Of a stretch of DNA of 57,356 nt, positions 9,057 to 56,122 are shown in pieces (position 1 is the stretch's first letter; the number at the start of each line of letters is the position of its first letter). Source of the stretch: Nanobdellati archaeon (GTDB taxonomy: Archaea; Nanobdellota; Nanobdellia; Woesearchaeales; JAADFO01); the NCBI GenBank assembly GCA_013152815.1, contig JAADFO010000072.1:1-57356 (forward strand), written 5' to 3'. The notes under the pieces were generated by a model. It searched no databases. It had not been told where the DNA came from and saw only the letters and a program-made list of their open reading frames with translations. The position numbers were made by a program, and so were the translations under genes.

Positions 9057-9160
9057 GGGGCTATGGGGTAGTTTGGCTATCCTTTCCGGTTTGGGGCCGG
9101 ATGACCCCGGTTCAAATTGGACGTTCACACCAGGACTCCATGAAAGTCCGGGTAGCCCCA
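9057..9160 (+). tRNA. tRNA-Pro(TGG) with a 30-nt T-loop intron
   Basis: Acceptor GGGGCTA/TAGCCCC, discriminator A. The anticodon arm TCCGG-TTTGGGG-CCGGA is uninterrupted and gives anticodon TGG. The T arm is split: stem CCCGG (9106-9110), loop TTCAAA, then 30 extra nt (about 9117-9146), then T and CCGGG (9148-9152). Removing them yields a normal 74-nt tRNA. The insert folds back (GGACGTTCA against TGAAAGTCC). The exact cut is uncertain by 1 nt because both junctions carry a T. Confidence 0.88.
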
Positions 9161-16009: not shown

Positions 16010-16127
16010 TGGACCTGCCGGGATTCGAACCCGGGGCTTCCGCCTCACCCGGCGCACGCCGGAATGTCTATGACCCCGTCGTTGCGCATGCGAAGGCAGC
16101 ACTCTAGCCGGACTGAGCTACAGGCCC
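16010..16127 (-). tRNA. tRNA-Ala(CGC) with a 43-nt intron
   Basis: Acceptor GGGCCTG/CAGGTCC includes the G3-U70 wobble pair that identifies alanine tRNAs; discriminator A. Anticodon stem CTGCC/GGCGG, loop TTCGCA...A, anticodon CGC. The intron (16046-16088) follows position 37, the canonical site. T arm CCGGG-TTCGAAT-CCCGG. Confidence 0.9.
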
Positions 16128-33075: not shown

Positions 33076-33196
33076 TGCGGAGAGCAGGATTCGAACCTGC
33101 GAAGGCACTAAGCCAACAGGTCTCTTCGCAAGATGCGGCAGATAAGCCACATAACGCTCCTAAGCCTGTCCCGTTTGACCGCTCCGGCATCCCCGC
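33076..33196 (-). tRNA. tRNA-Leu(TAG) with a 37-nt intron
   Basis: Acceptor GCGGGGA/TCTCCGC, discriminator A. Anticodon stem ACAGG/CCTGT with loop CTTAGG...A gives anticodon TAG. The intron (33122-33158) follows position 37. The variable arm is long (GGC-TTAGT-GCC), as in leucine tRNAs; T arm GCAGG-TTCGAAT-CCTGC. A palindromic TATA-like element, aacctttttaaaggtt, lies at about 33245-33260. Confidence 0.9.
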
Positions 33197-53511: not shown

Positions 53512-55020
53512 CTATGCTTTCACAGGGGGCTGCTGGGTCTTCATGCCGAGCAGTTTCAGCTGCTTGAGGATCTCGGGTGAATCAAGGGTGGTGGTGATGG
53601 ATGCGAGGAGGGAAAGGTTCTTCCGGAGACCGATGTTTGTCCCTTCAGGGGTTTCGATAGGACATAATCGTCCAAGATGGGTGGGATGCAGTTCTCTTGC
53701 CTGAAAATTCTCCTGGGTAGCGCTCAGGGGCGAGACGACCCGTTGGAGATGGGAAAGGGTCTCAAGGAAATTGAGCCGCTGGATACGCTGCGAGATTCCT
53801 GTCCTTCCGCCGACCCAGTTCCCGGTGGCCATGGCGCTGTAGATACGGGAGGTCAGGAGCTTGTCCCTGATGACCACCTTGATGGACGGGAATTTCCCAC
53901 GCTTCACGATCCGTTGAAAATTGTAGAGCAGGTCACTGATGAGCACCTTGAGGTTGACCCGGAACAGGTCGGCCAGAAGATCGCCGCTCATCTTGAGACG
54001 CTTGTTGATATAATGGTCCTTGTCGTCGACAGGGATGTCTCCCTCGGAGATGAGGACAAACCGTTTCAGCATCTTGGTGAGGTTGATGGCCTTGGTCATC
54101 CTGGTGTCTGCAGAGACGCCGATGTGAGGGAGCAGGTATTTGTCGAGTATCTCCTTGATGCGGTCGATGCGGATCTCCTTGCTTTGGGTGATGCCGACCT
54201 TCTTCGCGATGAAGTCGAGAGCTTCCTCCTGGGTCTTGATTGGCGCGAACTCCAGAAGATTGAGGACGATCCTGTCCTGATAGTCCTGCAGATCGATGGA
54301 TTCCAATATCTCCTGGTCTTTGATGAGCCCGAGGGCCTTGCAGACGATGATGAGCGGTATCCGGTTCACCCGGGTGAAGGTGAGGTAGTAGATCCCGTCC
54401 TTGAGCTTCTCCATGGTGTGGGGTATCTTGAAGGAACCCCGTTCAGAGAAGAGCTTGCCCATAAAGGCGCTCATCTTCGTCGGCGTGGATTCCACCATGA
54501 ACCGGTTGCTTGCGAGGTCCTCGATGGTCACCAAGACTTTCTCGGTGCCGTTGATGATGAAATACCCGCCGGGATCGTAGGGGTCTTCGCCGTTCTTGAT
54601 AAGTTCCTCTTTCGAGAGGTTGTGGAGATGGCAGTAGCGGGACTTGAGCATGATGGGCAGGTTGCCGATCTGGGTGACGAAAGATTCCCGTTGGACACCG
54701 TTGATGTGGGCGCTCACTTCGATGTACATAGGAGCGGAATAGGTTGTCTTCCGGAGACGGGCCTCGATGGGATAGATGTCACGCTTCGAACCGTCAGCCT
54801 CGGTGATTTCCGGCTTGGTCACCCATATCTTGTCCAGCTTGATCTTGAACTCGTCGATGTTCTGGGGGATGATGGTCGGCTCAATCTCCTTGTTCTCCTC
54901 GATGATCACCTTCAGCTCCTCGTCGATGAGCCTGTTGAAGCTGGCGATCTCAGAACCGACAAGAGAATGTTCCTCGAAATATTTCCGAAACAGCAGCTCT
55001 GTCCGTTCACGTTCATCCAT
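53512..55020 (-). CDS. rpoB2: DNA-directed RNA polymerase subunit B''
   Basis: N-terminal part of the second-largest subunit (502 residues): lobe, protrusion and fork, with GGYFIINGTEKVLVTIEDL and RELHPTHLGRLCPIETPEGTNIGL. The ATG at 55020 gives MDERERTELLFRKYF and overlaps the rpoH stop by 8 bp; an extension to 55191 would run over rpoH. Confidence 0.95.
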   Translation of the reverse strand: MDERERTELLFRKYFEEHSLVGSEIASFNRLIDEELKVIIEENKEIEPTIIPQNIDEFKIKLDKIWVTKPEITEADGSKRDIYPIEARLRKTTYSAPMYIEVSAHINGVQRESFVTQIGNLPIMLKSRYCHLHNLSKEELIKNGEDPYDPGGYFIINGTEKVLVTIEDLASNRFMVESTPTKMSAFMGKLFSERGSFKIPHTMEKLKDGIYYLTFTRVNRIPLIIVCKALGLIKDQEILESIDLQDYQDRIVLNLLEFAPIKTQEEALDFIAKKVGITQSKEIRIDRIKEILDKYLLPHIGVSADTRMTKAINLTKMLKRFVLISEGDIPVDDKDHYINKRLKMSGDLLADLFRVNLKVLISDLLYNFQRIVKRGKFPSIKVVIRDKLLTSRIYSAMATGNWVGGRTGISQRIQRLNFLETLSHLQRVVSPLSATQENFQARELHPTHLGRLCPIETPEGTNIGLRKNLSLLASITTTLDSPEILKQLKLLGMKTQQPPVKA

Positions 55021-55276
55021 CGATGACACCCCTATAATATACCGCCTCGCCGGCGGTAGGACTGGGCCGTATGATCTTGACCACATCATCGGGCTCCAGA
55101 CCAAGATGGGCGATGGCAGGATCAGAAAGCAATATCTTTGGCAACTCTTTGAGCGTGATGTGATATCTCTCGAGGAGTTCCTTCTTCTCACGTTCGCTGA
55201 CCTTCAGATGCTTTGGGATAAGCACATGGGTAAGTGGCGTGGTCCTCTTCTCTGCCTTCTTTTTGCGCGCTACCAT
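55013..55276 (-). CDS. rpoH: DNA-directed RNA polymerase subunit H (Rpo5)
   Basis: Homologue of the C-terminal domain of Rpb5. The 87-residue protein has THVLIPKHLKVSEREKKELL, LPKILLSDPAIAHLGLEPDDVV and GEAVYYRGVI, all typical. The start MVARKKKAEK at 55276 is preferred over an upstream codon. It opens the polymerase operon and starts 31 bp after the 3' end of tRNA-Lys. Confidence 0.93.
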   Translation of the reverse strand: MVARKKKAEKRTTPLTHVLIPKHLKVSEREKKELLERYHITLKELPKILLSDPAIAHLGLEPDDVVKIIRPSPTAGEAVYYRGVIDG

Positions 55277-55307: not shown

Positions 55308-55441
55308 TGGGCCGGACGAGACTTCCGGACGCTCTTGTCGGTCTGCTCTGCTTTCGCGTTTTCGAACTCGCGACCACACGATTAAAAGTCGTGTGCTCTA
55401 GTGCCCAAACCACCAGGTTTTCCAGGCTGAGCTACCGGCCC
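55308..55441 (-). tRNA. tRNA-Lys(TTT) with two introns (D-loop and T-loop)
   Basis: Acceptor GGGCCGG/CCGGCCC, discriminator A. Anticodon arm CACGA-CTTTTAA-TCGTG is continuous and gives anticodon TTT. The D-loop carries 21 extra nt (55401-55421) after AGCCTGG, and the T-loop carries 39 extra nt (55322-55360) between TTCGAA and T. Removing both leaves a standard 74-nt tRNA-Lys with T arm GCGAG/CTCGT. Cut points may be off by 1-2 nt. Confidence 0.9.
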
Positions 55442-55527: not shown

Positions 55528-55675
55528 CGCCCCGGCCGGGACTTTCTCAAGGCCAGGCACGTCCTGGGCTTGTTTCGAACCCGGGTCGAAGCCTCGACAG
55601 GGCTTCATGATAGTTCTCGCAGGGTTCCAAGGAGATTTCCTGGAGCATCCCTGGGCCGAGCTACACTACCGGGGC
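55528..55675 (-). tRNA. tRNA-Asp(GTC) with two introns (D-loop and T-loop)
   Basis: Acceptor GCCCCGG/CCGGGGC, discriminator G as expected for Asp. Anticodon arm AAGCC-CTGTCGA-GGCTT gives GTC and is uninterrupted. The D-loop has a 41-nt insert (55613-55653) after CTCGGCC and before TATCATG. The T-loop has a 32-nt insert (55542-55573) between TTCGAA and T, ending GAAAG as in tRNA-Pro. Removing both leaves 75 nt. Confidence 0.9.
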
Positions 55676-55995: not shown

Positions 55996-56122
55996 TCCCC
56001 CCACCCAGACTTGAACCGGGGACCTTTCGGTGACTATGCTGTCTGTTTGTCATCCAATCTTTTTCTAAAGACAGTCAAACAGAATCTACAGCCGAACGCT
56101 CTAGCCACTGAGCTATGGGGGG
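55996..56122 (-). tRNA. tRNA-Tyr(GTA) with a 54-nt intron
   Basis: Acceptor CCCCCCA/TGGGGGG has the C1-G72 pair typical of archaeal tyrosine tRNA; discriminator A. Anticodon stem TTCGG/CCGAA, loop CTGTAG...A, anticodon GTA. The intron (56032-56085) follows position 37. T arm CCCGG-TTCAAGT-CTGGG. A TATA box lies at 56159-56170. Confidence 0.92.

Follow-up and report, generated by a model that had tools for sequence, protein, structure and literature searches.

Results

A tRNA-Lys gene carries introns in its D-loop and T-loop

Positions 55308-55441 hold one tRNA-Lys(TTT) gene with one insert in the D-loop and another in the T-loop, each folding locally into a bulge-helix-bulge (BHB) motif. We consider it very probable that this is a functional tRNA-Lys(UUU) gene whose two BHB introns, at sites 19/20 and 59/60, are cut by a single EndA and whose exons are joined by RtcB, and that it is the local case of a state found throughout the Woesearchaeota. 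The window (by which we mean the whole stretch of DNA analysed, 57,356 nucleotides) is contig 72 of a 1.49-Mb assembly, 90.8% complete. Many Woesearchaeota entries match its RpoB at 60-77% identity, which identifies the organism, a MAG, as a Woesearchaeota (DPANN) archaeon, in keeping with an earlier suggestion that the host was DPANN-like. The features of the locus are as follows.

55308..55441, minus strand: tRNA-Lys(TTT) gene with two introns (exons 55422-55441, 55361-55400 and 55308-55321)
55401..55421, minus strand: tRNA-Lys D-loop intron, 21 nt, site 19/20
55322..55360, minus strand: tRNA-Lys T-loop intron, 39 nt, site 59/60
55015..55276, minus strand: rpoH (RNA polymerase subunit H), directly downstream of the tRNA-Asp/tRNA-Lys pair; synteny anchor, identified by translation and synteny
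53512..55026, minus strand: rpoB N-terminal subunit (B''), up to 77% identical to Woesearchaeota; used for placement and for fetching syntenic loci

The exons measure 20, 40 and 14 nt, with the inserts lying between G19 and U20 and between A59 and U60. ARAGORN makes no call on the unspliced precursor, and names the 74-nt sequence left by removal of both inserts tRNA-Lys(ttt). The anticodon loop (CTTTTAA) is uninterrupted, such that there is no canonical intron at 37/38. A split or permuted tRNA was considered and rejected, the three exons being collinear within 134 nt. Coordinates, insert lengths, spliced length and intact anticodon loop had all been given in a preliminary description of this DNA made from its letters alone, and re-examination returned exactly the same values.

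That description had also proposed looking for BHB folds at the junctions, and these are present at both (arrows mark the inferred cut sites). In the local minimum-energy fold of the D arm and its insert, the D-stem is followed by a central helix (GCCU/GGGC), a GG↓A bulge, an inner helix (AAACC/GGUUU) and a 3' bulge (AC↓U); the corresponding fold of the T arm and its insert runs from the T-stem through UUCG/CGGA and an AA↓A bulge to an inner helix and an AG↓U bulge. Each junction is therefore a BHB with 3-4-3 spacing, its 3-nt bulges at the inferred cut sites. A fold of the whole precursor keeps the central and inner helices of the D-loop BHB and lacks the T-loop BHB. It is from folds of this kind that we infer splicing, and the positions of the cuts, in this and the other pre-tRNAs described below.

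Since standard finders detect no tRNA at the locus, we weighed whether the interrupted genes might be decaying pseudogenes with insertions, the tRNAs being supplied by intact copies elsewhere. A search of the 90.8% complete assembly at E up to 10 found no second gene for tRNA-Lys(TTT) or tRNA-Asp(GTC), so the intact rival named in the preliminary description as a possible objection did not turn up (a missing contig could hold a second tRNA-Lys(TTT), given that completeness). The exons moreover fit the consensus after excision, and the same insert sites, with conserved splice motifs, recur in dozens of independent assemblies. We regard decay as very improbable.

Three of the window's six tRNA genes have introns away from the anticodon

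A tRNA-Asp gene sits just upstream of tRNA-Lys and, like tRNA-Pro elsewhere in the window, carries introns of the same kind. Run on the window, ARAGORN reports zero tRNAs and Rfam three, tRNA-Lys not among them; a custom tRNA scanner brings the number to six, of which three (Lys, Asp and Pro) are interrupted outside the anticodon. Recovery of tRNA-Asp and tRNA-Pro took a scan with looser D-stem pairing and a T-loop splice-motif pattern, as a strict D-stem demand misses both.

55528..55675, minus strand: tRNA-Asp(GTC) with D-loop and T-loop introns (exons 55655-55675, 55574-55613 and 55528-55541), found by scan
55614..55654, minus strand: tRNA-Asp D-loop intron, 41 nt
55542..55573, minus strand: tRNA-Asp T-loop intron, 32 nt
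9057..9160, plus strand: tRNA-Pro(TGG) with a 30-nt T-loop intron at 9117-9146, found by pattern search and anchored scan
55996..56122, minus strand: tRNA-Tyr(GTA) with a canonical 37/38 intron, in the Asp-Lys cluster (Rfam, scan)
16010..16127, minus strand: tRNA-Ala(CGC) with an anticodon-loop intron (Rfam, scan)
33076..33196, minus strand: tRNA-Leu(TAG) with an anticodon-loop intron (Rfam, scan)

The D-loop intron of tRNA-Asp forms its BHB in the minimum-energy local fold (bulges GC↓C and AA↓C, central helix CUCG/CGAG, inner helix CAGGG/CCCUG), and that of its T-loop intron (bulges AA↓A and AG↓U, central helix UUC/GAA plus a G-A mismatch) lies within 1.9 kcal/mol of the minimum. For the tRNA-Pro intron a strict BHB comes within 0.1 kcal/mol of the minimum. 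The strict motif, with 3-nt bulges around a 4-bp helix, is thus seen in both Lys introns, the Asp D-loop intron and the Pro T-loop intron, and with one mismatch in the Asp T-loop intron. Going beyond the preliminary description, such introns are borne not only by tRNA-Asp and tRNA-Pro but also by a tRNA-Gly(CCC) elsewhere in the genome, with D-loop and T-loop inserts. In all four cases (Lys, Asp, Pro, Gly) excision restores a canonical tRNA as judged by ARAGORN, the spliced forms of Asp (75 nt) and Pro being called tRNA-Asp(gtc) and tRNA-Pro(tgg).

Across the genome, introns are present in approximately 23 of the 39 tRNA genes identified, the intron calls having been partly checked by eye; tRNA-Ile(GAT), tRNA-Arg(TCT) and tRNA-Phe(GAA) have inserts that were placed, also by eye, in the anticodon stem or variable region. 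This census is partial: the assembly yielded no gene for initiator Met, Ala(TGC), Leu(TAA), Ser(TGA), Thr(GGT), Ile(CAT) and some others, which may lie on missing contigs or bear other introns. One further tRNA (L013:1501-1611, genome C71:7883-7993) reads as Ile(TAT), an isoacceptor that is rare in archaea, where AUA is usually decoded with a CAT tRNA.

The same gene pair differs in intron content among relatives

A scan with RpoB yielded 44 relative contigs for a comparison of synteny. The tRNA-Asp/tRNA-Lys pair stands upstream of rpoH-rpoB in about 40 relatives (most of the Woesearchaeota contigs), so that an orthologue of our tRNA-Lys gene, with different introns, is available from some 40 species. 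Either gene may have no intron, one in the D-loop, anticodon loop or T-loop only, two, or all three; the full set occurs in the tRNA-Lys of L040 and L073 and the tRNA-Asp of L042, L065 and L067, and at the other extreme both genes of L074 and the tRNA-Asp of L048/L051 are intronless. Content differs already between the near neighbours L064 and L065. Mapped onto a quick RpoB tree, the distribution takes a minimum of 11, 9 and 8 changes for the D-loop, anticodon and T-loop introns of tRNA-Lys and 8, 13 and 5 for those of tRNA-Asp; the sum of 54 is a lower bound in which gains and losses are not separable.

The recurrence of the pair, with D- and T-loop introns and the same gene context, in dozens of separately assembled genomes bears on the concern that, the source being a MAG, the inserts might be an artefact of assembly or binning; in view of it we find an artefact scarcely credible.

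Three side observations were made on these loci. Extra insert sites occur in the 5' strand of the anticodon stem (around 29/30) and in the T-stem of tRNA-Lys genes (L042, L064, L065, L033 and L071; L061). In L071 (2300-2700) the T-loop insert of tRNA-Asp, flanked by TTCAAA and GAAAG↓TCCCG, exceeds 200 nt by a wide margin and is far longer than those of its relatives. At L054:2418-2581 the last exon (TCCCGGCCAGGGCG) is repeated approximately 55 nt downstream of tRNA-Asp, in the manner of a duplicated 3' end.

Splice motifs of the syntenic introns exceed chance

Introns collected by synteny were picked without regard to intron sequence, and only this set was used to prove the motif. Among its 40 T-loop introns the central helix has all four pairs in 28 and at least three of four in 38 (these 40 include unsound entries, the tRNA-Asp of L054, over-extended past the duplicated 3' end, and those of the outgroup L068, all excluded from the inner-helix and base-57 tests below), and shuffled introns reach at least three pairs in a mean of 8.5 cases and a maximum of 15. 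A 4-bp central helix together with an inner helix of at least 4 bp is found in 12 of 29 D-loop introns, compared with 0.25 (maximum 2) after shuffling. With counts so far above the shuffles, the motifs of these inserts are not due to chance. The intron base opposite R57 also follows the tRNA, being C in 8 of 17 introns facing G57 and 1 of 20 facing A57 (Fisher p=0.005, kinship ignored).

The inner helix behaves differently at the two loop sites compared: 18 of 26 anticodon introns have one (3.9 in shuffles), whereas in 37 syntenic T-loop introns the figure is 10, barely above chance (shuffled mean 5.0, maximum 10).

T-loop introns are spread over many isotypes and genomes

A search with the T-loop motif pattern (insert length limit 110) added about 65 tRNA genes, for a total of 96 candidate T-loop introns (two unsound) of 12-91 nt under that limit, in tRNAs with more than 30 anticodons; pattern-selected introns, having been chosen by motif, do not serve as proof of it. 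With a stricter version of the pattern, matches fell in 18 of the 37 genomes that belong to the same order and in 18 of 151 from elsewhere in the class, against approximately 8 of 188 for a backwards control. Outside the order, the pattern also matches candidate tRNA genes of family f44 (G089, G097, G103, G115 and G151), with inserts mostly of about 9-12 nt.

Short T-loop introns of 12-16 nt occur in several species, for instance one of 13 nt in the tRNA-Lys of L043, and eight in the synteny set measure 13-16 nt. With so short an intron at most 5-9 nt remain within the central helix, so that nearly all of them have too little room for an inner helix of 3 bp plus a loop.

One intron type, TATC...GGATTTG(A/G)(A/G)AG, turns up in tRNAs for His, Ala, Glu and Gly in several genomes, a pattern suggestive of transfer from gene to gene, such as has been proposed for Thermoproteales (PMC4033280). 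Both this shared family and the rapid turnover of sites would fit self-splicing (group I or II) or other mobile elements in place of BHB introns. Most of the inserts, at 12-91 nt, are nevertheless far below ribozyme size (those of Lys, Asp and Pro are 21-41 nt), no Rfam group I or II intron matches in the window, and the junctions bear BHB motifs; we accordingly rate such elements as very improbable, and retain the reading as BHB introns.

The genome encodes a single alpha-type EndA together with RtcB

The splicing endonuclease of this genome is one EndA gene of 176 aa, at L031:1474-2004 on the minus strand, with one match each to PF02778 and PF01974 and the catalytic Tyr, His and Lys of alpha4-type enzymes; no second PF01974 match was found in the genome at E up to 10. 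It aligns with 147 residues of the M. jannaschii enzyme (1A79) with no gap. Near its C-terminus the alignment shows an acidic DDEGD segment, DADGD in M. jannaschii and absent in the N. equitans catalytic subunit. Acidic loop L10 joins the subunits of alpha4 enzymes (PMC6379350), and we take DDEGD to be its likely equivalent; retention of the segment lends indirect support to EndA being, probably, a homotetramer.

EndA scores above the family cut-off in 36 of 42 relatives, alpha-type in each and one per genome (in two pieces in G012), and with the Pfam profile no convincing second subunit or three-unit fusion was seen among the 42. Specificity loops are 15-18 aa long in crenarchaeal enzymes and 11 aa in ARMAN (PMC12397907); none of 31 aligned EndAs (two from Diapherotrites) has an insertion of either size, as judged by insertion size rather than by alignment with CSL/ASL sequences.

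RtcB is also encoded, and the genome therefore has both enzymes looked for with BHB introns. The RtcB gene (L212:1-2652; genome contig C15, ~2.2-5.0 kb) contains an in-frame, intein-like insert of about 490 aa (DIN/CLAGDTRI...NFVANGLIVSN/CGVRL) with an LLGYLFGDG motif.

Discussion

We propose that, in the precursor, T-loop bases U54-R57 (or D-loop nucleotides ~15-18) would pair with the 3' end of the intron, creating a 4-bp central helix flanked on each side by a 3-nt bulge that contains a cut site. The single EndA, probably as a homotetramer of the 176-aa alpha subunit, would cleave both bulges, and RtcB would then ligate the exons. Because the central helices consume T-loop and D-loop bases, splicing should come before the two loops dock. 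Throughout the Woesearchaeota, introns would come and go in the tRNA genes of most isotypes, with a preference for three sites, namely the D-loop, 37/38 and the T-loop.

Does this require an enzyme of broad specificity? The preliminary description held that it did, a claim we could not uphold for this locus: the motifs are near the strict 3-4-3 form and the sole EndA is an alpha-type protein without the loops associated with broad specificity, so that for the genes of the window a broad enzyme is not needed. Its interpretation as a whole is thus partly supported. For the clade as a whole such an enzyme is perhaps needed. Relaxed introns are reported to be removed efficiently only by (alpha-beta)2 and epsilon2 enzymes (PMC6379350), and the alpha4 enzyme of another nanoarchaeon, Nst1, cuts canonical introns only (PMC6379350, PMC4033280). 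Set against these published limits for alpha4 enzymes, the short T-loop introns and an inner helix barely above chance make the Woesearchaeota a probable exception to the rule linking enzyme and intron.

One account, which concerns the enzyme and leaves the status of the introns untouched, is that broad specificity arose within the clade's alpha-only EndA, enabling it to cut relaxed motifs with no inner helix although it has neither the crenarchaeal nor the ARMAN loop. The T-loop introns of 12-16 nt, the weak inner-helix signal relative to anticodon introns and the lone EndA gene in most relatives argue for it; the near-strict introns of the window do not call for it, and a diverged second subunit could evade the Pfam profile. 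To us the two sides are evenly balanced. The fuller proposition, that an alpha-only EndA without both known loops removes relaxed introns (12-16-nt T-loop introns included) from nearly every isotype, breaking the coevolution rule and giving broad specificity another basis, we advance tentatively, as a possibility a shade below even.

The clade offers a test of the rule that makes a heteromeric EndA with a specificity loop a precondition for the spread of non-canonical introns, as the rule predicts that this alpha-only enzyme will fail on the short T-loop introns. The same two genes with differing introns in about 40 species likewise amount to a natural experiment on the gain and loss of tRNA introns. 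There is also a practical consequence: half of the window's tRNA genes escape ARAGORN and Rfam owing to D- and T-loop introns, and such tools are thus an unreliable basis for counting tRNAs, estimating completeness or declaring tRNAs absent in Woesearchaeota MAGs.

Archaea already known to have both non-canonical and multiple introns are the Thermoproteales, Thaumarchaeota and Asgard archaea; for ARMAN, non-canonical introns are on record. The earlier view that they occur mainly in some Thermoproteota was therefore too narrow, given the reports from Thaumarchaeota (PMC8450103), ARMAN (PMC4033280) and Asgard archaea (PMC11291895). For Woesearchaeota we found no report of such introns in the open-access literature; GtRNAdb may list some.

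As summarized in PMC8450103 and PMC4033280, the Thermoproteales (Pyrobaculum, Thermofilum; Sugahara 2008, Fujishima 2010) resemble the present case in having non-canonical BHB introns, up to three per tRNA, with families shared across isotypes; relative to those summaries the Woesearchaeota differ in being DPANN, in a strong preference for T-loop 59/60 and the D-loop, and in an EndA that is alpha-type only and without the crenarchaea-specific loop. ARMAN (Micrarchaeota; PMC12397907, PMC4033280) are likewise DPANN with non-canonical tRNA introns, but theirs is an epsilon2 EndA of three units that carries a specificity loop of 11 residues, whereas the woesearchaeal EndA is a single unit of 165-216 aa without the loop. 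Among Asgard archaea, Atabeyarchaeia and Freyarchaeia (PMC11291895) match our case in that most tRNA genes are interrupted, many at non-canonical sites and with several introns per gene; they belong to another phylum, and the endonuclease goes unmentioned in PMC11291895. The closest parallel on the enzyme side is the alpha4 EndA of M. jannaschii (1A79), which shares the 147 collinear residues, the acidic segment and the catalytic residues; that enzyme is rated narrow (PMC6379350), in contrast to the wide intron repertoire of the Woesearchaeota, which extends to introns too short for the strict motif.
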